A stretch of 64,000 nucleotides of DNA. It comes from Norana najaformis. Taxonomy: Eukaryota; Annelida; Clitellata; Crassiclitellata; Hormogastridae. The notes beneath the pieces were generated by a model. That model was not told where the DNA came from, did no database searches, and worked only from the letters and a program-made list of their open reading frames with translations. The stretch is from positions 10,857,738 to 10,921,737 of the forward strand of contig OZ029923.1 in the NCBI GenBank assembly GCA_964023275.1, given 5' to 3'. Both the position numbers and the translations under genes were made by a program. Shown in pieces: positions 21,301 to 51,541 of this stretch. Within the stretch, counting starts at the first letter, position 1. Each line of letters begins with the position of its first letter.

Positions 21301-24300
21301 TCCTTCTTATGATAGACGACGCGAACATTGGACCAGAGTATGGAACCAGAACTCGTATGTTGAGTTGTCCACATATTGAAACAACTATCGACTGATATCT
21401 TGTGCAGCTTAACAACAGCCTAAGAGAAATCATTAGATTATGATGTTGGATTGCGATTTTGACTTGAAGCAACCATCAATTGATGCTTTGGGCATTATGA
21501 CAATGGCGCTATAGAAGTCTTTAGATTAGAATATCACTCAGAGAGCAAGTGAACACAACGTGCTAGCTTATGACTGCCTTACTTTTGGACTCTAGATGGT
21601 GGTGCAAACACACCATGTCTCGGTTCACAGGTGAAATACCTCGTACCGTTAACCGATCCGTCATTCTTTCCATCCGGTCGGTCCAACTTTATACCAAACC
21701 AAACACCTATAGATAAAATGAACAAAAAACCGATAGCTTCAAGAATAATGCTGACAAGTCTGCAGAAGCTTTAAAATAAGCAAAGCTTTATTAAAACCTA
21801 CACTTTCACATGTGCAAAGCCTTATTAAAGCTGACTCAACCATGAGCAGTTTTTTACAGTTTCCTAATTTCCACAGGTTATATGTGTATATTGGTAATAT
21901 CCGTGTAGAGGTTATATGCAAGAAAATATGTTACATATGCACTTATGTATCCATAATTACAGTTGCGTTACCTGAAGCAAAGTCTGTTTCGCCGATAAAC
22001 ATAACCACTCCAGTCTTTTTTCCAGCTACCAGAACTGGGTCTGATATCTGTATCTCTTCATCAACTGTTTTTGCACTTCGTAAACCTTCAGAAGATAACC
22101 AACACAAATAAACAAATTCCAGCTGCTTCACAATTTTGCCTCATCTATGATACAAAGTGGCTGGCAAGTTGACTTTAAAATGTAACGTAAGAATATATCC
22201 AAAGAACATGAACATAGGGTAACCAAATATAGAATTACCAGATTCATATTCATGAGTGCGATGAGACAAAATGTTAATATTTTTTACAATGGTGAAAAAT
22301 GTCTGTAACTGAAAACTTATACAGCTTTAACAAGCAACTTAAAGTATCAAACTAAATCCTGATACTTAGGTTTGATTTTAACTTTTTAAACATGAAACTC
22401 AAGTCTGAAAATCACAGTTGCACGTAATTAAATTTAAACAATGCATGCCACATTGCTTCACAATGAATCTATACATACATTTTCTAAATAATAATTTGTA
22501 TTCATTGTAACTCAGTAAGAACTTAGAAAAGTAGTTTTAAGTTGCAAGAGCTAGAGCTCTGATAATTCAAGTCCGTATACAAGTTAACTGTATAGTGCAG
22601 ATGCAGAAGGTTCAACTAAATACATAAACATTAACATTTGATAATAATATACAAACCAGTGTTGACTTTTGCAGTCACACGACCTAAGTCAATTCTACCG
22701 TGGTTAAGTCGTAGAAGAGATGCTCTTGACTGGCTTTTTGCCAGGACACCAGGTCGTGAGATTTTGTGGATTGGAGCAAAAATACCTAAAACCAAAACAG
22801 AACTAAAGTCCAAACCAGCAACTTAATGTTTTTACACTAGTGTAACAGGTTCCAAATTTCTGGATATCCTAAGATAATGCAAAAATCATTACTGGTTAGC
22901 CATGGATGTTTCCAAATTCTTCAAATCCAGGACTCTGCATAACTCTGAGAAATGCCATGTTCAAACCACCAACCAGACTTCGACATGAGCCCATCTCATG
23001 TGTTGGATCATCCCTCTCACTGAATTTACATATATGTTACACTGGACTCTTTTCAGTATACAGTTTTGCTCACCTCAAACCCATTTGGTTCAGCGCTTCT
23101 GTGATGTCCTTCAACGATGCTACATTAAGTGCCTTGAAATATGCCTACATACATGCATGGAGACTTTTCACCTTTGGGAGCTATTTTATTACAAGCCTTT
23201 TACCAACCGTGCTATCTTATATATTTGGTACAACTGCAAGCTTCAGTTTCTACTGTAAATGCAGTGTTCAATGGTGGGGCATGGTGGCCAATTGGTGGGG
23301 CACGGTGGCCAATTGGTGGGGCATGGTGGTCAATTGGTGGGGCATGGTGGTCAATTGGTGGGGCATGGTGGCCAATTGGTGGGGCACGGTGGCCAATTGG
23401 TGGGGCATGGTGGCCAAATGGCGAGGCACGGTAGCTGATTGGATAGAGCCCTCGTCCTTTAACGTGGAGGTTAAGGGTTCGAGCATTCCCTCTGACGGTT
23501 ACTATGTAGGGACCTTGAGCAAGTCATTCATACATAGTTGCCCAGTGCCATCGATGGATGCTTAGTCATTAGACAGTGGCACTGAACAAATTTAGAAATG
23601 ACACCAAGCACGGTCCTATGTTTGTGCAAATGCTCGATGAGCAATAATTTTTTAGTCAAGTCTTTAGTTTGCAGCAAGAAAATAAAAACCGCATCACAGA
23701 CATACCGTAGTTCGGTGGACATTTGAAGTACTGGACATCGTCAACAGTGCCATTGTTCTTGCCCACTGCTTCGTCCAGCTCTATGCCGGACCACATGCCA
23801 TCAGCGAATAAAGTAGGACCACAATAGCGCAACGTACCAGACTGAAAAATCATTACACAAACACATAGTCAGATGGCACCACTAGTACTGATAAATACAC
23901 AAAGTAATACAAAGGTGCTCCCCACAAAGATTTAAAATTGGTCTCAAGAAATTATACCATATTTCAGTATCACCTTAGAGAAAATTTTACAGCAGACCTG
24001 GTACGGGAGTTGGTTTTTAATGACATCGGAATGTACATGCCACTCTTATCAAAGATGATGGCCTATGAGAATACGCACATTTTGACAACACAATAAAATG
24101 TAATGCATGTCAATCTCACATCACCGTCTTGGGATTTGAACTCGGATTGTAGAGGTGAAAAGTCAACACATCTGCCACTCGACGGCCTTAATTTCGTGGT
24201 CCTATAGGCAATAGATCCTTAGATCTTTGGAGGAAATTTTTCAGCTGAAGCATATACACAGCAGCAGCAATTCAACAACAGCAATCTGTTGTTGCAAGCC

Positions 24301-27300
24301 ACAATCTATATTTTATGAGCCACAACCTATTGTTATGAGCCACAATCTATTGTTATGAGCCACAATCTATTGTTATGAGCCACAACCTATTGTTATGAGC
24401 CACAACCTATTGTTATGAGCCACAACCACAACCAACTGTTATGAGCCACAACCTATTGTTATGAGCCACAATCTATTGTTATGAGCCACAACCTACTGTT
24501 ATAAGCCACAACCACAACCTATTGTTACGAGCCACAACCTATTGTTATGAGTTACAAGAAATGTCAATTTCACAAGACACATGGAGAATCAAACCTTGGT
24601 CACAGAGGTAAATAACCAAAAAAATATTAGCTGAAAGATGCTAAAAGATCCCTTTCAATATTTATATAAATATCAAGAATAGCTGCAGCCAAAAATCAAA
24701 ATCTCTGACATCACCCATCATACTCACTTTCGCACCACCAACAACAACCTTATCGCCGACTTGCACTCCTAACGCCTGAAGAACTCGAGACACTTTGGAA
24801 CCGTCTTCAGAAGACAGCGGTGCCATGCAGTTGGAGCTGTCAGCACCAGCAGGTATCTCAGCCTCCTCCAGCATCACCTTCAGCCGCAACACCAGCTTCC
24901 GTGTCTCTGAGTCTGGCTCAAAACTCTCTGGATCAGGTAACCAACCTATATCAGAAATAAACCGGCAGTCAGTCAGCATCAGCTCATAAAAACTGGCCCA
25001 CACGGCCGACTACATAAAACAGACACACTGGGAAAAATCACCCATTGCTACAACATACAGTCTTGCAGGACTCATTTAAACATAAACTTCCAGTCCATGT
25101 TAAGTCACACCTTTTTAGATCAGTAAGATAACCAAGCATACAGGGCTTCTGAAAGGTTCTTAAAGGCGCTAAATAAATGTCCTGACATGTACTGACATAT
25201 GTAACAATACCATACTGCAATATCCCTCCATCTTCTATAGCCCTGTCTCTCAGCATAAATATTTGTTTAAAATTAAACTGATCATGGAACCTATTGGCAT
25301 TTTGTCTTCCATGTCTTTTGCAGATGGATCGGCACCGTTCTGCAGCAGTACCAGTGTAGATTGGTAGGACAGATTACGAACGGCAATGTGGAGCGGACCA
25401 CCATGGTCAAATTCACTACAAGGACTGTCGATATCTACAAAAAATCACCTCAACCGGTAAGAAATTCTGCACTTTAGCACTCAGTTCAGCAAACAATTTC
25501 AAAATGCTTTAATATATGAGTTAGCGAGCCTTGCTGGAGCGCTTCTGCGGGGTACTTAAAAGGTGCAATGAAGTGTACTGACACATACATACTTACAGGA
25601 ACAACACCACATGTACTATAACCTACTTAGAACACTGCCTTGGGAGCTATATAAAGAAGCACCTTAAAATGAGATTGCATTGCATGCTTTTCTTCAGCTC
25701 AACTGCATTATTATATCGGAATTTTTATCTAATAATGTAGCGTATTGTAAACAGGCTCTAGTGTATCTGCAAATATGCATATTCATTCACAAATAATTTA
25801 TTCACAGCAGCTGAATAAGAACTTTGGCTGGTCATCATATCCAAGGCATGTACATATGCCCTCCTTCTGGGATGTTCATCAGATCTGTTACATAAATGCA
25901 ATGCTACAGCCTTCAGTGGATGATCATACATCACTGTCACCTTCCTCTTCATCATCATCTTCATCACCTTTATCATCACAATCGTCATTATCAGTAACAT
26001 CATCATCACAATAACATAAAATAATTTTCATGCACTCAAAATGATTGTACAGTCATCGTAATCAATCATCATCATAAGACAAATATCTAAGGAATCCAAT
26101 GTACCAATTGCCTTCGTTGCTTTCAGCAGAAGCATTATTACAGGTGCCACATCAAAGTACGTGGCATAATGGATGGCAGCCATATTTGTCCAGCGACATC
26201 GTACGTAGGGATCAGCACCTCGAGACAAAATCAGGGTCACCACACGGCATGCCTCTTCAACATCACCCATACCACGACAGCCAGCTTTGCAAGCATAATG
26301 CAACATCGTCATATCCGTAAGGCCATCTCTGTCATCAATGTGTGCTCCGACTTTCAGCATCTGAAGGCCAAAGGACAGATGTTAACTAATTAAGAAATAT
26401 CGCAAGGTAAGGTAAAAAAACATTAAAAACGTTCCTCAGAAGCATGATCCGATAAGATCTCAAATAAATTTTGGCCGAAGACCAGTACGAGCTGTATGTT
26501 ACAGGTATGTGTCAGTAGGAGTTCTTGGGGCATATTTGTGATCATGCTGAGTGCATAATGTTGCAGACACAATTTCATGTGGAATGTCTTCTGGCTCTTT
26601 GCATTAATAATGAAACAGTTCATTTTATAGTTTAATTATTACAAGTTCAAACGTGCCAAAACTTGTCTCTGATAGATAAAAGAAATGCAGGTGCAACACT
26701 CAAATAGCGTGAAAAGATAAAAAGATAAAAGAAATGCAGGTGCAACACTCAAACAGCATGAAAAGATAAAAGAAATGCAGGTGCAACACTCAAATAGCAT
26801 GAAACAGGAACACTGTACTTGAGTTTTAAGTTATGCACAAATATTAAATTATATTACATCAAATTACATTACAGATCAATGTACCCGAGGGTTTACGACC
26901 AAAGTTCTCATTAACTTCTAAAACCATGGAGCTGCTGTGAAGATTAAAACCAAATTAGAACTCTATCTTCCATCTGGACTTCATTCAAATTATCTGGTAA
27001 AGCATTCTGCATTGTTGATATCGTCTGCTTCACTTAGACTTAATTCAAACAAAAAATAAATTTCAACCTGACGTATGATTATTTCTAAACTTTGTTGAAC
27101 ATGTGGAGTCCACTGGCGCAAAATGGCAAACAGTTCTGCAACAGATGTTGATTGTGAAGTGAGTATGTCCTGACATCCTGCACATTTCGGATTAAAAACG
27201 TTAAACTCTGTTCCACTCTCTTGACACACCGAACAGAATGGCACATCCACTGGTGAATGTATCATCGGTTGCTGGCGACGATTCTCCCAAGTCATAATTT

Positions 27301-39422: not shown

Positions 39423-39865
39423 ACTCGACCACTTACTTTCAATTCATAGATCGTTGTGTTTGAGACGCAGTAGGCCAGAATTAAACTCACCAACACTTTA
39501 CCCCTTGCAATCTCTGAGCAGGTCTTCCACTCAAAACTGAAAACACTCCTGTTTTGCAGATCCTATCCTGACTGCTCTTCTTTCCGTTATCTGTCATGCG
39601 GATCCAATTCCAAACACCACCCATCATAACCGCCTGACTGCCTGCGTGACTCTTTGATTGACCTGGAATCGAACCCTTCCTGGTTATCGATTTTGTTTTG
39701 ACTGAGCGCTTGTCTTGAACTGTTGCCAAACTGAGCACCTGTGAATAAGCTGGTTCCCGCGACTTAACTTTCGTTGGGCGCTGTAGAAATCTTGAGATTA
39801 TGATTACGATACTCAACTACTTACGTTCAATTCACAGATCGTTGTGTTTAAGACGCAGAAGGCCA
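39423..39865 (+). mobile_element. L2 fragment with 55-bp target duplication
   Basis: The L2 body (family A) is 39478-39810, from the last codons of the ORF through the 'gagcacctgtgaataagctg' block to a GATTACGAT tail. It is bracketed by 39423-39477 and 39811-39865, two 55-bp direct repeats differing at six positions. The repeats start and stop exactly at the element ends, so they are a target-site duplication. Confidence 0.88.
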
Positions 39866-41818: not shown

Positions 41819-44800
41819 ATGTCGTTGTCCAGCACATTCACAGTTTGGTCCTCATGTACATCTTACACCAGCAGGTCTGTTATTAGTTCAACAGAAACAT
41901 GTACTGGCTTTTCAACAGCAACTATTTTACTTTCATTGTCTTGCCTTTCCTTATGTTACCTTACTTTTCCTTTTCTTACTTTTTCAGTTACATGTATTGT
42001 AATTTTTGTAATTGTTGTCAGAGATTTGTATAGCTCTGCTTCAGGAGAAACTGATATGAGGTGCTCCATGTTCAAATGTATCTTTGACTCTATTTAAGCA
42101 GTCAGTATCTGACATTCGGTCGTCTTAGAAGATCAGTAAACAAAGTAGTACTGGTAAATCAAAGGATATAACATCCAGGCAAACATATTTTTGTTTCAGA
42201 GAGAAATGTTCTCCAGAGAAGAACTTCAGTGAGCCAGACTAAACCTGCCAGGGATAAAGATTATGCAGTGGAGGTTAGCACAGAACACAAGATTAAGTGA
42301 ATTTAGTTGGACTGTTATATGTAAGTGAGTTAAGTTCCCAGTAGACAGTTCAACAGATCATTTTATGATTCTTTGCAAATATTTGCAAGTTTACTAATTA
42401 TGCTTTGCTTATCTGGAAGGAGTTTATCTTCGTCGCGTGAGCATTCTATGATAAATTCTAGTTTTAGTCAGTAGAGGAAATGGGAGGAATGCGGCATTTC
42501 CAGTATTTCGACCAGTTGCTTCTGGTTTGTTGTTGAAACAAATTCCCTACCAAGTGGACTTGGCTCTGCACTGGGCATGATGAACTGGATCATGACATTC
42601 TGATGATACCATTGCTTGTGCCCACATAGATCCAAAATAACCCTGTCCAGAGTAGCAAAATGGCCATTTTATAGTTTAACTGACAGGTCATTTTCTCATG
42701 TCGACTTGCCATAAAACCAGTTTGCTGTGGAACCCAGATTTGAAAGTGGTGCCCAACAATTTTGACCCAACCTGACTTGAAGTTCCAAAGTCGACACATG
42801 TCGACTTATTCAAGTCGACTCCCAGGTCTACTTCCCAGTGCAAGAAGCCTAAGTGGACAGGTGACACCAGTTTCCAAGGTATAACTAACTTCTGGTCAAA
42901 CTGATTTATCCCTTTATTTGGTCGGTAGTGTCACTGCAGTAACAGCTGTTGTTGCTGTACATATGATAATGCTGGGCTTATTCTATTTCTTTGGCATCTT
43001 TTATACACTTGGGTTTTTGTGGCTTTTAAATGTCAAGACAAAAGTCGTGGACTGAATAACTGGCACGTAAATCTTGATTGAAAAGGGTATTGAGTATTAT
43101 ATCTAGAAATTATTTTTTATTCTTATTTAACACCGTTTGCGGTATAAATATCACGATTTTTACCTAACTGATTACTTCGTCGTTTTTGGTATGTTTCAGT
43201 GCAGTTTAAATCAAGTTTTAGCAATTTTAAGCATGACTTGTGATTTTGTGATAAAATTAAAGCACCCTAGCTTTTAAACTTCAAACCTTTCTGATATGCT
43301 TACAAGAAATCTTGAACAGAAGTGTTGAATTTGACTGAAGGTGGTTGGATGCAATATTCGTTATGGAGAAGGAGTAACCCAGGAAATTGGCATGGTATGT
43401 TGACGACAACTTTTAATATTTTGTTAATTTCTTAAAGTGTATTTAATCTTCAATGCGTGGCACATAGCACACATGTACCACGTGAAAGTCTGATCAGTTT
43501 TCAAGAAGTCAGTCTGCTGATCTGCTGAGCCTATGGTGGAAATTCTCGTTGTAGTGCACTAGTACTGATGCTTCACTCTCTGTAAGGGTGCTATATAAAT
43601 GTCCGGTCACATTACAGTTTGCATTACTTTGCTTTATGGTTTTTATGGTAAGGTATGATGACTTCAGTGGCCTTGGCAGCAATGAGATGATGTGGTTAAT
43701 GATTGATAAAAATTCCATATTTTACGTGTACATGATTTGACCTAAGAGTTGGTTAGTAAGATGTCTAGGTTCCTATTGCTTTGCCTTATATAAGCTGTAC
43801 TGCATTTTAGGACTTTGCTAATCTTGGTGTAAAGAAGCTGTGTGTCATGACAGACAAGACGCTGGCAAAACTTCCAGCTGTTCAGACAGCTTTAGAATCC
43901 CTCCACAAGAGTAAGGTGACCTTTGAGGTGTATGACAGAGTTCGAGTGGAACCTACAGACAAAAGGCAAGTGCAGTATTGGAAAGGAATAATTATTCTTC
44001 TGGTTCTCTTAAGCATTGCTGCAGTCATTCCAGCTCTCTTTCGAGTAGTTTGCATATTAACTTACAGCATTAGCTTCATGGGTGCTGTACTGAAGTGCGA
44101 TTATGATTACATTTGCATTTTAGCTAAAGTTTGCAGCTGCTTTTGAATTATGGTAATTTTGTCCAATATTGTAAAATAAAATAAATAAGGAAATGCTAAT
44201 CTAAATGTTGGACTGCAGATAAGAGAGTTTTCTGTGTTGTTTTCAGTTTTCAAGACGCCATCAGCTTTTCGAGGCAGGGTCAGTTTGATTCCTATTTGGC
44301 CGTTGGTGGTGGATCTGTGATGGACACTTGTAAGACAGCAAATGTCTATGCATCAAAACCAGACGCTGACTTTCTGGACTACGTCAATGCACCGATTGGA
44401 AAGAACCTTCCAATCATGCATCCGTTGAAGCCACTGATTGCCAGTAGGTAACATTTCTGTAATATAGAGTTAAAAGTAACGTAAATTAACTGTTGTGGTA
44501 GGATACGGTGACATCAACGGCCTGGGCAGTCATTAGATGTTGTTAAACACCAGATACTACTACTAATATCTCTTTAGAGGTTCTTATAAGTGAGTAAGTT
44601 AGTAAGTTAGACATTTGTTAACATGCCATGAGTCCAGCTGAGTGAGGAATCATAGGTGTAAAGGGCTTAATAACTGCCTTAATGTGGCAGTCAAGTGGCT
44701 AATGCATCAGCTTCTGACCTCTGTGACCTGGGTTCGAATACGAGGCTTGTCATGTGAACTTGGAATAGATTGCATCGTCAAACGGTGCATAGCCTTGGAT

Positions 44801-47800
44801 GCTGTCATCCTCAGTATGAGTGCCTCCTTTAATTCAACAGCACTGTTTCCTCTGTGCTGTGGAAATGTGGCAGTGTTTCAGGCAGACAAAGTGAACATCT
44901 TTTGGTCTATCCTTACAGGACCTGATTCACTGGTGATGGATTTGTGATTATGATTATGTTTCATACATTACAGAATGTAATGTAATGGAATCAGAGATTT
45001 GTTTACACATTTTACTGACAAAAAAGTTCTGCATGGATTTGCACCAGTATTTTCAAGGGAAAATGTGCTTTCTTGAGAATTATTTTCCATGCACATTAAT
45101 GAAGACTTTACCTGGTAATTAAATGATTAATGTAGTACATTGTATTTGTTTAATTGTTCATACACATTTTGAGGACCATGATTTCTCGAGGATAATATGT
45201 CGTCTTAGTTCACTTTACCTCACTATAATTTATGACTATTAATAAACATTTTGTGCAGTCAGCCAACATGAAAATATGAGAACGTGTTTGAATATACTCA
45301 TCGTTCTTTCTAGTTTGCATACAGTTTCCTAATAAAATTAATGTTGTATGTGGATTCTTGGAAAGCTGCATGAATAAGAATGAAGTGAAAAATTAGGTGT
45401 GTTACCGGATCATGGATTTGAGATATTCAGACACTTGCAAGTCGTTCTATATCTAAATTTAATTAACTTTAAAAAGAATTGCCCTTTGTTTATTTATGAT
45501 TGCTGTGATTGCGCTTTTTCTGTTAAAGTGCTATATGAATAATTTTCATAGTTCCAACGACTTCTGGAACGGGGAGTGAGACGACTGGAATTGCAGTCTT
45601 TGACTTTGAGCAGATGAAAGCAAAGACAGGTAGAATTCAGATGCTTCCCAGGTGGTATCATATTCTTTGCATTATGAAACACACAAACACACATATGTAC
45701 ACACGTATAACACATATACAACGTACATACAGTACAAAGCCACATATAATGACACGTACAAAGACACAAAAGCATACATACAGATACCTATTGAAATACA
45801 CATAAAGGCACCCATTCAGGGATACATATACTCTGGTTAGCACACATACAAATACACATACAGTCACCGATGCAAACACTTATAGGCACACAGACACATA
45901 CAAGTAACAGATGCCATAATTGTAACAGATACAAACACATATTAACACATACAGAGGCACACAGACACATACAAACACACAAAAATGTGTCAGATTATCT
46001 GCATTTAGAAGCTAATAGTTGCCTCAGAGTGTAGAGTTGCTATCAATATTTGTTACTATATCTCAGAAGTTGTTGATTTTGAAGAGACATCTCAGATGTT
46101 GGGACAATCCTTAAGTGTCCATCTCTGTTTTAATGGTTGCAAAATGAAAATATGCTCCTGTGTTCCTACAGTTACATTAGATCTTTACTTTATATATAAT
46201 TAGAATTCACTGATGCAGTCCGCATTGATATATCTATTTAAGTTTTGTTTTGTTTCTCAAGGTTTTGCTTTTTCCAGATAATACCTAAAAAGTAAAAACT
46301 ATTAAATAATACTATATAATGCACAAGTCTTCACTTGGCCAGTCAAGAAGATTTTAGTTGTTCATCTGATCAGAAATGGTTGCTTTGGTAACAATGAAAA
46401 GGATGTTGATGTGGTAATTTTAATCCTGTTTGATTTCACACATATTTGGTTGCTACAATTATGTGGTTAGGTGTAGTTGGCCGCCCAATGCGTCCAATGT
46501 TGGGGCTTATCGACCCAAAACACACTCTGACGATGCCGGAGAGGGTTGTGGCCAACAGTGGATTTGATGTGCTCTGGTGAGTTACAAACAGGTCTGCTTG
46601 AAGTCACTTGAATGAACTTTAATTTTGTGGATGAAAAACTGCATGATATCTGTGGTCAGTGATTGCTTAGCCTTGAACGTTATTTTGAAAACATAGAGTA
46701 ATTCGAGTTTTATATTGGGTTAAAAATTCTCCTAAAATATATGTAATAATAATGTAATAATAATACTGTAATAATAATAATAGCAGCATCTAGAAAAACA
46801 TAAAAATATAACCCACTTCTGCAGCAATATTATTTTGTTCCCCTCGCTTTTGAAACTCTAGGCCCAATTAATAACGTTGGGCTCACTTTCATAACTGAGC
46901 TTGGGCGCTCTTACGCTGGTTTCTGATGACAAAAGAGAAACGCCTGTCAGTTGCCATCCAACGATTTAATGCTGTCGCCTTCCAAAGCACTTTCTCTATG
47001 CCAAAACTTGACAAGTTTTAGCCAACCAAGACAGATTTTTCTCCGGAGCGTTTTTTTATAAGTCCCGATGGATCATAAGTACCTTGGGCAAAAAAAGAAA
47101 TAATAATAATACTGTAATAATAAACACTTGTTGACGTTTCAGCGCTTCAGTGCTGGTACTTTCTGCAACACATTCTCTGTGCCAGAACTTGATGAATAGC
47201 GACTGTTCCTGATGTTGTTCCTCCTTTGCAATAAGTTTTTAAATCCTGAGGGATCAACAAAAAGTAACCATAATAGATTTATGTGGCATATGTCAGAATT
47301 GAATCACAGGCGCAGGAAGTTGCTCAGCGGGGAAATTAGTGGACAGAGTAAAAATGAAACTAATTAACTGAAAGGTTAACATGTGGGAAAAGTTAGGATG
47401 TCAGCAGTGATTATTTTATTTCCAGTCTGATGTTGATAATGATTTTCTGTTTCTTTTCTAGTCATGCACTAGAGTCATTTACTGCCATTCCATATAATGA
47501 ACGGTCACCCCGTCCTACCAACCCGAAGGACAGACCCACTTACCAGGGCAGCAACCCCATCAGTGACATCTGGGCCAAACAGGCCCTAAAAGTCATCGGT
47601 ACCTACTTTAAAAGGTGTGTAGAAATGACATTTGGAACAAAAAATGAATTTTTGCTTGTTTTGAATATTAAAAACATGGATTCCTAAATTACCAAACTCA
47701 GCAGTCCATTATATTTCCTTGAGGTGAGCTTTATCATGATAATGATCACCATGATCATAACTTAATCTGAAAAACTTCTATAGCACCACTGCAATAATCA

Positions 47801-50800
47801 CAAAACATCAATCAATTATTACGGTAGTTAAAACAATCATCTACGTAGTTTTCACGTGAAAAGCCTACACCAGTTGAATGGAATTCAAATTCACATCTGT
47901 AGAGAAACCTCGACTATAACCAGCGTTCCAACATGCTTGGGGGCCAGATACAAGACATGGTCAATATCTAAAGCCTAAGTAGGCTATTTATGCTCTGTGG
48001 GTAGCTTCAGATTCCAAAAGCAATTTTTTGCAAGTTTGCATTTTCTGCAGCTTCCGTCTTGTTTTCTGTTGGTAGAGCAGTTTTCAATTCAGATGACATT
48101 GAGGCCCGCTCTGCAATGCACCTCGCAAGTCTGTATGCTGGAATGGGATTTGGAAATGCAGGAGTTCATCTCTGGTAAATGTTAAACTTTTGCACATAAA
48201 AATTACTGTTATTTGGGATTGGGATGGCTAGCGAAACAGATCCAGTAGCATTCATTACGGACGTTTTCTGTTGCCCTCTTATTGATCAATAAATGACAAA
48301 CCTACCTCTGCAAATGAGCAGAGATGGGAAACGGCTCCAGGTCAGACAAATTGGCTTTCAGTACCTCATTCAGCGTTCCGTGGGTGCACATTTTTACCTT
48401 TGTTAACTGAAATCTTCCTGTTTAGATGAACCAGCCGAGCTTGACCATAAGTGCCAGACTGATTTTATTTTTGATTAAGCACCTGTGAATAAACTGATTT
48501 CCATGATGTAGCTTTTTGGGTGTTGAAATGAGATACTTAAAAAGCTCTGTATAAAATGTCTTGATACAGACTGATTAAGCACCTGTGAATAAACTGATTT
48601 CCATGATGTAGCTTTTTGGGTGTTGAATTGAGGTACTTAAAAAGCACTGTATAAAATGTCTTGATACATACAATCATAGAAATGCAGAGTTCACGATTAC
48701 AGTTACGGCATCATATTTCTGCGCCTTTTTCCTCAAGTGTAACTGACATTTAAATATAGGACTTGACCTTTTCTGGTATTCTTTTGTTGTTGCAAAATGC
48801 AGAGAATTGTGTTCTGATTTTTTAGTCATGGCATGTCGTATGCCATAGCTGGAAATGTCAAAACCTACAAGTGCAAGGATTATAACGTTGATCACGCTCT
48901 TGTGGTCAGTCTTTGCCATGTTCACTTGTGACAACAGTTTTCCTTTAATTCTTTCTGTTATTCAGTTATTGTGCAGTAATGTGAAGATTATTTATTTTGT
49001 TATAATTTATTTTTTGTGTAGATTACTCGTTGCTGGTTTAATATTTGAATAGTAATGCTTGAATATCAGATCACCGATTATAAGACAGACAGATGTTAAG
49101 CTTTGTGTACAAATGTATTAAAATGTAGCATACACCTTGATCGAGATGTTTACATAGTTACTAACTACTGCACTTGAAGAGGATGATAACAATAATGACA
49201 ATATTGTTGCGTTTGTCTGACAGCCAGGGTGGGGAATGTGAACCCAAAGCCACCATCAGTGGTGCAATGCTGGCCAGTTGTGGGCCCAGTGAATGTGTCT
49301 GTCTGGGTTGTGCGTTACCCTGCAATGCAGCAATGACATAATATTACATGGGTAGCATTTTGCGATGAACAACTTCCTATTTAATGGCATTTTATAGATT
49401 TTACAAGGCTTCAGACTCAGATGCACCCACATGTGCTTGCATGTGGTATTCTGGTTTAAAGAATGCAGTTAACTTTCTGGATTAGTATTACATGAGGTAG
49501 TTTCAGTTAGCATTATTTGTTCGGTTAGCATTATTTGTTCAGTTAGCATTATTTGCTCTTTTAGCATTATTTGTTTAGTTAGCATTATTTGTTCAGTTAG
49601 CATTATTTACTCTTTTAGCATTATTTGTTCAGTTAGCATTATTTGCTCTTTTAGCATTATTTGTTCAGTTAGCATTATTTGTTCTTTTAGCATTATTTGT
49701 TCAGTTAGCATTATTTGTTCTTTTAGCATTATTTGTTCTTTTAGCCTCACGGTTTGTCAGTTGTTTTGACGGCACCAGCCGTCTTCAAATACACATATCC
49801 GATGTGTCCAGAACGTCATATTGAAGCTGCACAGCTTCTAGGTAAACCCTGCAACTTAAGCCAATTGGAAAGAGTGTTCGGCTTGTAATGTGGAGAGTAT
49901 AGATTTAAGCCTCCCCTTAGACAGTTGCTGTGTAGGAACTTTGACCTCAAGCAAGTCCTTCACAAACAATTGCTTTGTGCCTCAGATTCAGATTTACTGA
50001 CCTTGCTTGCATAATAAATGCAAAAATAATAATAATTTTGAAGCTCACGCTGTTAAAGCTTACTGTTGTACAGCCTAAAAATAATAAAGCGTGTATTTGT
50101 GAAACGTTATAGTGTATGGTAATGATGTAAACCAGGTAATGGTAAAAGCCTTAACTGTAAAACCAATGATGATGATGTGAAGTAAAATGATTGATAATAA
50201 TAGTGAAAACTATACTAACACCCATGGATAAGATGTGAAACTTGAAAAGAGATCAGAGATCATTCTAGTAAGTATGGCAGTGAAAGTTAATACGATAGTG
50301 GCATAAGTTTAGAAATTACCAAAAGTTAATTTTGCATATAAGCAGTTAATGATGGGTCGTTCATTGAATATGAATATGTTAGATTCATTTCAGAGAACAG
50401 AGAAACCATTTAAGAACAAAACACTTGGTGGCCTGAAATGATTTGCTGTGATATTGGAATAGAATGAGTGCAATATGGAATGGCAAAACGTTTTAGTGCA
50501 TCCAACATATATGGGTAGGTTACAGCATTTTCCAGAATCAGGTCAGACTGTCAGTTGTTTTGTTGCAACAGGAACCGATGTGAGTGGAACACGGAAAGCA
50601 GATGCTGGACTTGTCTTGTCCGATACAGTCAGGCGGTACATGTACGACATGAAGATAGACAACGGACTGAAAGCCGTTGGCTTCACGACAGATGATATCA
50701 AAGACCTTGTCAAAGGAACCTTACCACAGGTGTCAAATTCAGCAATTACTTCTGTGTGTTTCTTGGTGTGGGCACATTCGCATTTACGTAGTGCCTTCCG

Positions 50801-51541
50801 AGAACCTCTAGAATTTACTCCATATGAGTTGAAATGTTGCATATGGACATAATAATGAAACCTTCATCCTCAGGCAAATGATGCCAGCTATCCCACACGA
50901 ATAGAACTCAACTAATGGCTTGGTTCGACCAGATCTCGTTGGATAAAAATGCGACTGGTAGCCAACTGGTTTAGGCGCCTGCCTTTTGAGTGTGCGGCTT
51001 AAAGCTTCCCCTGAGACGGTTGGTGTTTAGGGACTTTGAACAAGTCCTTCACCCATAATTACTGCTCAGCACCACTGATTGATTCTGTGTCTTTATGTAG
51101 GAGCACTTAATCAGTACAGAAAGAACAATCTTGCAGATTCTTACTGCTGAAGGTGACACAGTTTAACAGCTAGTCAGTTTTATATTTTATCCTACAAGAT
51201 GTTGTAAATCACTGTTTAAAACCCCAAAATCCAGCGACTTACTAGGCCCTAGTAGTTAGTGTGATCGGAAGTCATTTCCATGTGCTTTGTACAAGACCAT
51301 GTGAACACATCACTCTCACAAACAACGAAAAAGTTAGCAAATTTTGCTACACTGAATATTTCCTCCAAGGGTTCCATGTTTTAACCTAGACATTTAGTAA
51401 ATATCTAATTTCCTAACTACTCTGGGTCGTAAGTTCTGTTTTATCTGTTTCATTTAGGAACGTGTTACAAAAATGTCACCACGAGCAGTTGCTGAGGAAG
51501 ATTTGGCTTACCTCTTGGAAGAATCAATGACAGTTTACTAA
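41819..51541 (+). CDS. ADHFE1: Hydroxyacid-oxoacid transhydrogenase, 13 coding exons found
   Basis: A mitochondrial iron-dependent alcohol dehydrogenase family enzyme; the family oxidises 4-hydroxybutyrate coupled to 2-oxoglutarate reduction. Exons: 41819-41874, 42200-42273, 43341-43394, 43811-43965, 44247-44443, 45552-45629, 46471-46576, 47462-47614, 48076-48174, 48826-48904, 49745-49841, 50572-50729, 51458-51541. These give one frame of 463 codons including the stop (human 467 aa). Landmarks: [104 protein letters not shown] at the end. The metal-site histidines are present. The intron after 43965 uses a GC donor (AAAAG|GCAAGT). The presequence exon is not found. An ATG at 40006 (MAAKVPREKVLFLLKAIT) looks suitable, but its donor phase does not fit. 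Confidence 0.95.
44678..44900 (+). mobile_element. tRNA-derived SINE (third family)
   Basis: 'tggcagtcaagtggctaatg' and 'gggttcgaatacgagg' give A- and B-box-like motifs at tRNA spacing. The body follows to about 44900. It lies in an ADHFE1 intron. The family is not seen elsewhere in the window with confidence. Confidence 0.55.
45665..45995. repeat. Degenerate ACAC/ACAT-rich simple repeat
   Basis: About 330 bp of imperfect (ACACAT)n and (ACAC)n sequence in an ADHFE1 intron. It explains the many spurious frames there. Confidence 0.85.
46860..47275. repeat. Two related copies of an unknown repeat
   Basis: 46965-47085 and 47145-47270 share 'actttctctatgccaaaact'-type text followed by 'gatggatcataagta' or 'gagggatcaacaaaaagta'. 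It is probably a LINE 3' end, not identified further. Confidence 0.4.
48425..48700 (+). mobile_element. Diverged L2 3' end containing a 100-bp tandem duplication
   Basis: The block 'gattaagcacctgtgaataa' occurs at 48473 and again at 48573, with the next 100 bp repeated almost exactly (period 100). Each unit ends with a 'ggtacttaaaaagcactgta'-type LINE tail, and a GATTACAG end follows. It lies in an ADHFE1 intron. Confidence 0.8.
49507..49740 (+). repeat. 18-bp tandem array forming a splice acceptor tract
   Basis: Exactly thirteen 18-bp units of ttagcattatttgttc + ag/tt (234 bp). The array ends where the ADHFE1 exon at 49745 begins: the functional ttag (49741-49744) is the first four bases of what would be unit 14. 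Every unit contains TTAG after a T-rich stretch, so the array is a ladder of acceptor look-alikes. 'cag' and 'ctt' type units alternate in part, hinting at growth by 36-bp steps. Confidence 0.93.
49858..50040 (+). mobile_element. tRNA-derived SINE (family I)
   Basis: Body 'ttgctgtgtaggaactttga' and 'gattcagatttactgacctt', ending in an AATAAT-type tail. The head is truncated at 'ccaattggaaag'. It starts 16 bp after the ADHFE1 exon ending at 49841. Confidence 0.8.
50953..51115 (+). mobile_element. tRNA-derived SINE (family I)
   Basis: Head 'ggtagccaactggtttaggc', B-box region 'cggcttaaagcttcccc', body 'tagggactttgaacaagtcc'. It lies in the last ADHFE1 intron. Confidence 0.8.

Follow-up and report, generated by a model that had tools for sequence, protein, structure and literature searches.

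How does splicing choose a single 3' splice site when the end of an intron is built from tandem copies of one? The question arises in the annelid Norana najaformis, where a minisatellite of 18-bp units runs up to an exon of a gene resembling ADHFE1. Regular, near-equal AGs at a constant unit length make such a locus a natural experiment on how splicing picks one. Our analysis covers a stretch of 64,000 nucleotides, here called the window. It takes up an earlier note on this DNA, which had claimed that the array supplies the exon's acceptor and that the spliceosome must select the last of about fourteen near-identical sites.

An ADHFE1-like exon and the array beside it

The gene and the parts of it that matter here are as follows.

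42200–51541, plus strand: ADHFE1-like iron-containing alcohol dehydrogenase gene, 12 modelled exons; the model starts at 42200
48826–48904, plus strand: upstream exon (exon 9 of the model), ending in CTT GTG before the donor gtcagt, phase 0
48905–49744, plus strand: intron 9 of the model, 840 nt, phase 0
49743–49744, plus strand: AG of the 3' splice site of intron 9, the sole frame-keeping AG among 56 tested
49745–49841, plus strand: exon 10 of the model, 97 nt (32 codons and the first base of the next codon), ending in G before the donor gtaaac

Judged by its iron-alcohol dehydrogenase domains and its close similarity to the animal enzyme, the gene is ADHFE1-like and predicted to encode a hydroxyacid-oxoacid transhydrogenase. 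The name rests on similarity to the human ADHFE1 protein sequence, which served as the tblastn query, and on Pfam. The query matched 11 stretches in order on the plus strand, from 43353 to 51538, with 48–79% identity. These cover 11 of the 12 modelled exons, the first (42200–42273) having no match; the weakest of them, at 43353 (E 0.12), is carried by its position in the order, and the remaining three matches are weak and on the minus strand. The first exon and the exact boundaries of all 12 were set by eye from frame and splice signals, so that the single open frame of the model (443 residues with one terminal stop) is partly a product of its construction. The model protein contains PF00465 (5.5e-39) and PF25137 (1.1e-30), both above the Pfam cut-off, and matches 38 distinct solved-structure sequences. 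NCBIfam returned 14 families, every one below its cut-off.

The start of exon 10 is marked by the tblastn matches themselves: the one in the upstream exon ends at residue 355, and the next begins with residue 356 at 49745 (PHGLSVVLT...). Because the upstream exon ends in CTT GTG, intron 9 lies in phase 0 and exon 10 begins CCT CAC. Taken alone, the exon 10 peptide found no match in the solved-structure search and only families below the cut-off in Pfam (ADH_Fe_C, E 0.018; a family of unknown function, E 0.029). The support for this exon is coding evidence, namely the tblastn junction and the open frame.

Two other features of the model were seen. Its intron at 43966–44246 is of the GC-AG type (AAAAG/GCAAGT...TTTTCAG) and keeps the frame. 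The intron preceding exon 9 holds two 100-bp copies at 48472–48668 with 96% matches; a similar sequence, CACCTGTGAATAAGCTGG, was noticed by eye near 39736 and 41131 and is perhaps a dispersed element.

Tandem Repeats Finder (TRF) reports the 18-bp array at 49502–49738, with 13.2 copies, 86% matches, no indels and a score of 362. Shuffling the 840-nt intron 500 times with dinucleotides preserved gave a best score of 89. Laid out unit by unit, the array has two parts.

49502–49735, plus strand: 13 full 18-bp units, consensus TTCAGTTAGCATTATTTG, with AG/GG or TT at unit positions 4–5
49736–49745, plus strand: terminal partial unit of 10 bp, TTCTTTTAGC, containing the pyrimidine tract, the acceptor AG and the first exon base

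The motif TTAGC occurs 14 times at a spacing of exactly 18 nt, and its last copy is the acceptor at 49744. Repeat and exon overlap by one base, a C. Across the 13 full units, 13 of 18 columns are invariant, and the differences define two types. Six of the 14 copies are of a CTT type (units 4, 7, 9, 11 and 13 and the terminal copy), and eight are of an xAG/CGG type with AG or GG at positions 4–5, seven of which carry an extra AG 4 nt upstream of TTAG. The fourteen sites of the earlier note are thus real as TTAGC copies, while their near-identity has to be qualified by this division.

The unit is almost confined to the array. When 64 bases of the array were compared with the animal's own assembly (608 Mb, 17 contigs), in a search that skips very common words and scores the best candidates only, all five matches fell within 49502–49745. 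In a search of the same kind, the 16-mer unit core TTAGCATTATTTGTTC occurs ten times in the assembly, nine times in the array and once, solitary, on contig C4. In the window outside the array, six 18-mers lie at four mismatches from a unit and none lies closer. A dispersed origin of the unit is unsupported, as the lone copy on C4 is the only one of the core outside the array. Two plus-strand frames, 49473–49769 and 49579–49824, are open across much of the array; the latter is a LALFVQ-type frame that would be read from acceptors at the extra xAG sites.

Coding outcome and the choice of acceptor

We tried each of the 56 AGs between 48935 and 49800 as the acceptor in turn, holding the other boundaries of the model fixed. 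The AG at 49744 is the only one that leaves the modelled frame open. Together with the TTAGC layout and the start of the tblastn match at 49745, this bears out the claim that an 18-bp minisatellite adjoins the exon and that its last copy provides the ADHFE1 acceptor. All 22 AGs from 49496 to 49726 lead to an early stop. A unit of 18 nt, divisible by three, leaves the phase unchanged, so that from each of the 13 upstream TTAG copies the acceptor's own TAG is read in frame, giving a stop at residue 337, six codons beyond the junction. The other nine AGs in that interval shift the frame and also meet an early stop. Skipping the 97-nt exon 10 produces a stop at residue 335, and retaining intron 9 produces one at residue 340. 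Each decoy's coding outcome can be read from the sequence in this way, and any upstream choice within the array would be recognizable through its premature stop. Messages with premature stops are destroyed by nonsense-mediated decay, and the same may be expected of such transcripts here.

The earlier note saw in the array an unusual problem of choice for the spliceosome. Comparison with the other introns of the gene weakens that view. The used AG lies 18 nt from the previous AG, and in the other ten introns this gap is 16–69 nt (16–25 nt in eight; 36 and 69 nt in two). An 18-nt gap being typical here, the used acceptor is ordinary for this gene and one unit amounts to an acceptor module of normal size. 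The pyrimidine fraction in the 20 nt before the used acceptor is 0.75, within the span of 0.40–0.85 over all eleven introns. The last 240 nt of intron 9 contain 20 AGs, compared with 11–18 in the other ten. At the acceptors 49726 and 49690, the preceding 20 nt are identical to those of the used acceptor. Local sequence therefore gives no reason for preferring the last site, and a difference, if there is one, must come from the exon context or from the position of the branch point.

To place the branch point, we took the consensus yTNAy and counted as candidates all adenines with a T two bases upstream and at least one of the flanking pyrimidines. The last 300 nt of intron 9 contain 30. In mammals, the first AG is used unless it lies within 12–15 nt of the branch point, where it can be bypassed, or has a neighbor less than 12 nt away, with which it competes (PMC1431707). 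The preference for the first AG is also reported elsewhere (PMC7317903). Under this rule, use of 49744 follows from one or two of the 30 candidates, located in the last two full units, and the range is the same at each of eight minimum distances from 8 to 20 nt. Three candidates lie near the acceptor.

49713, plus strand: predicted candidate branch adenine in ATTAT, 31 nt before the acceptor
49725, plus strand: predicted candidate branch adenine in TTTAG, 19 nt before the acceptor
49731, plus strand: predicted candidate branch adenine in ATTAT, 13 nt before the acceptor

Intron 9 has no full yTNAy in its final 60 nt, which is true of two of the ten other introns as well, and for this reason the branch point of intron 9 is uncertain. 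The last 300 nt hold just two full motifs, TTTAC at 49609 within the array and TTAAC at 49472 ahead of it.

Known repeats that carry splice sites

Repeats that abut an exon and bear its splice site are already known, and the ADHFE1 array is a further example of them, not a new kind of thing. The closest likeness is to the mirages of amphioxus, in which a functional gene has one of its splice sites multiplied by tandem repeats at an intron-exon boundary (PMC3087553, PMC3902484). In the globin gene BflGb6, the 3' end of an intron is repeated, with six and three units in two haplotypes (PMC3087553), and similar repeats are described in PGBD5 (PMC3902484). RT-PCR suggested that splicing is undisturbed by mirages (PMC3087553), and the PGBD5 paper repeats the statement of no interference for Adh and troponin C (PMC3902484). 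This apparent harmlessness further weakens the notion of an unusual choice. As in a mirage, the ADHFE1 repeat is a tandem array at the boundary, ending at 49744/49745, and its units contain a splice signal, the 14 TTAGC copies 18 nt apart. Unlike mirage units, which span the boundary and include exon sequence, it stops at the junction with one base (C) in common. The unit length given for amphioxus is about 150–160 bp in globin and 10–72 bp in Adh3, against 18 bp here. Amphioxus Adh3 is a medium-chain enzyme unrelated to the iron-containing alcohol dehydrogenase ADHFE1.

A second likeness is to a variable number tandem repeat (VNTR) in human ABCA7, also a short-unit array flush with an exon whose edge bases form the splice site. 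The donor GT of exon 18 forms the start of the VNTR in ABCA7 intron 18, and a unit can be retained in the mRNA; array length is reported to correlate with skipping of exon 19 and not with retention of the unit (PMC5954066). A retained unit introduces a premature stop (PMC5954066), as use of an upstream acceptor would in the ADHFE1 array. The two differ in that the ABCA7 array carries a donor and the ADHFE1 array an acceptor, and in that the 25-bp unit of ABCA7 shifts the frame whereas the 18-bp unit keeps phase but contains an in-frame TAG. The ADHFE1 array is intronic and flush with the exon, and its terminal bases form the acceptor; in sequence layout, the locus can be regarded as the acceptor-side counterpart of the ABCA7 VNTR.

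Other parallels are more distant. Tandem NAGNAG acceptors also involve a choice among neighboring AGs, but these are 3 nt apart and yield isoforms differing by three bases (PMC3250501), whereas the TTAGs of ADHFE1 are 18 nt apart (with extra AGs 4 nt off in xAG units) and all upstream choices in the array lead to a stop. In dog LHX3, contraction of a 7-bp repeat in intron 5 impairs splicing, probably by making the intron too short (PMC3223203). Among the matches listed from the open-licence literature, none besides the amphioxus cases describes a short-unit array abutting an acceptor, an absence that is unproven. To the published cases we found of minisatellites bearing a splice site, the ADHFE1 array adds one on the acceptor side.

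Explanations for the array and its growth

We consider it probable that the array grew on the intron side of an existing splice site and is spliced through the choice of a branch point. On the intron side of the ADHFE1 3' splice site, an intronic minisatellite would have expanded by slippage or unequal exchange, leaving the exon-most copy as the working acceptor. Each CTT-type unit would be a complete acceptor module of ordinary size, with a weak branch-point-like ATTAT, a T-rich tract and TTAG. A branch point in the last two full units would then lead to use of 49744. Because the 18-nt spacing of the TTAGs exceeds the reported range of AG competition, it is most likely the branch point that determines which AG is used, and acceptor choice here would be mainly branch-point choice. 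The upstream copies would be decoys; as their use gives premature stops, they would cost some mRNA without yielding a full-length variant protein. We take the array to be most likely near-neutral. If splicing proves clean, this would argue for the branch point or the exon context as what sets the choice, and against the acceptor itself.

The array might instead act as a brake sensitive to copy number, its decoys diverting transcripts to mRNA with premature stops so that a longer array means less enzyme. Decoy use would indeed be unproductive, given the early stop from every AG between 49496 and 49726, and in human ABCA7 a longer exon-abutting VNTR goes with more exon skipping and lower expression (PMC5954066). 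Mutations in human NF1 that introduce an AG between branch point and acceptor frequently disrupt splicing, with exon skipping in 24 of 49 (PMC7317903), so extra AGs near an acceptor need not be harmless. Together with the high number of AGs in the last 240 nt of intron 9, this speaks against too ready an assumption of neutrality. On the other hand, amphioxus mirages are reported to splice normally (PMC3087553, PMC3902484), and in ABCA7 the retention of one unit was independent of length, only skipping of the next exon being variable (PMC5954066). On balance, we regard a brake as unlikely. We put slightly less faith in a more elaborate version, in which some 14 acceptor modules form a natural ladder, the exon-most copy is picked and array length tunes the dose of ADHFE1 by setting the loss to premature stops.

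The remaining explanations alter the premises. A branch point upstream of the array, with the spliceosome passing over the AGs within it, gains some appeal from TTAAC at 49472, which shares with TTTAC at 49609, itself inside the array, the distinction of a full yTNAy in the last 300 nt. To reach the used acceptor from 49472, the spliceosome would have to pass at least 22 AGs, contrary to the first-AG preference, and the predicted RNA fold of 49490–49780 is no more stable than shuffled sequence (z −0.55; 49 of 200 shuffles as stable), which leaves a looping-out of the array without support; we judge this reading very unlikely. The same fold gives no support to RNA structure as a means of hiding the upstream acceptors. 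An assembly artefact, whether in the number of copies or in the array as a whole, is highly improbable. Short tandem arrays are prone to mis-assembly, and the authors of the amphioxus globin study reported an aberrantly assembled repeat (PMC3087553), but this array is just about 240 bp long, its unit variants do not form a simple copied block, and the assembly consists of 17 contigs. Finally, the gene might be an unused pseudogene or the exon mis-called, and the model does require one GC donor. Against this stand the 12-exon open frame and both Pfam domains above cut-off. Moreover, the DNA of exon 10 has one match in the assembly, and of its four Fe-ADH domain matches three lie in the ADHFE1-like gene itself, the other being weak, below the cut-off (E 2.78) and on C4. 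We give almost no credence to an unused exon or gene.

Returning to growth on the intron side of the splice site, the array offers some indications of how it may have proceeded. On the exon side, CTT units 11 and 13 show no difference from the terminal copy along its 10 bp, whereas CTT units 4, 7 and 9 begin with C. Identity is 192/208 at a lag of 36 and 196/226 at a lag of 18, an excess that hints at pairwise (36-bp) duplication near the acceptor. The two unit types do not alternate significantly, since an alternation at least as strong occurs in 539 of 3003 arrangements. The earlier suggestion that the array arose by duplicating a working acceptor is consistent with the match of the exon-side CTT units to the terminal copy and gains nothing from the alternation. 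Growth by the copying of 36-bp pairs near the acceptor would fit the pattern. A first duplication might have been seeded by TTCAGTTAGC and TTCTTTTAGC, which lie around a single unit at a distance of 18 nt.

How often would an array lie beside an acceptor by chance? We surveyed 20 chosen 10-kb places (200 kb, contigs C1–C7; a small, non-random sample) with a non-overlapping TRF count. Seven arrays had a period of at least 9 and at least 5 copies, three of them with at least 10 copies. These counts are a lower bound because arrays whose best-scoring report has a long period are missed; in the window the same rule gives two arrays and misses one at 24297. Assuming 100,000–200,000 acceptors, about 10–21 arrays would be expected within 1 nt of an acceptor genome-wide, or 4.5–9 for the longer arrays.

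Other arrays were noticed along the way. In the window, a 21-bp array of 7.7 copies at 23272–23432 (TGGTGGGGCATGGTGGCCAAT) resembles by eye the head of a tRNA-derived SINE, and the 20-bp array at 24297–24551 has about 12 copies, with overlapping reports at periods of 86 and 106 bp. In one surveyed stretch (L016:9094–10000), a 23-bp array of 39 copies with 99% matches (TCTTTCAGTTAGTTAATAATAGT) reaches the end of the sampled stretch. It has TTCAGTTAG in common with the ADHFE1 unit, probably by chance.
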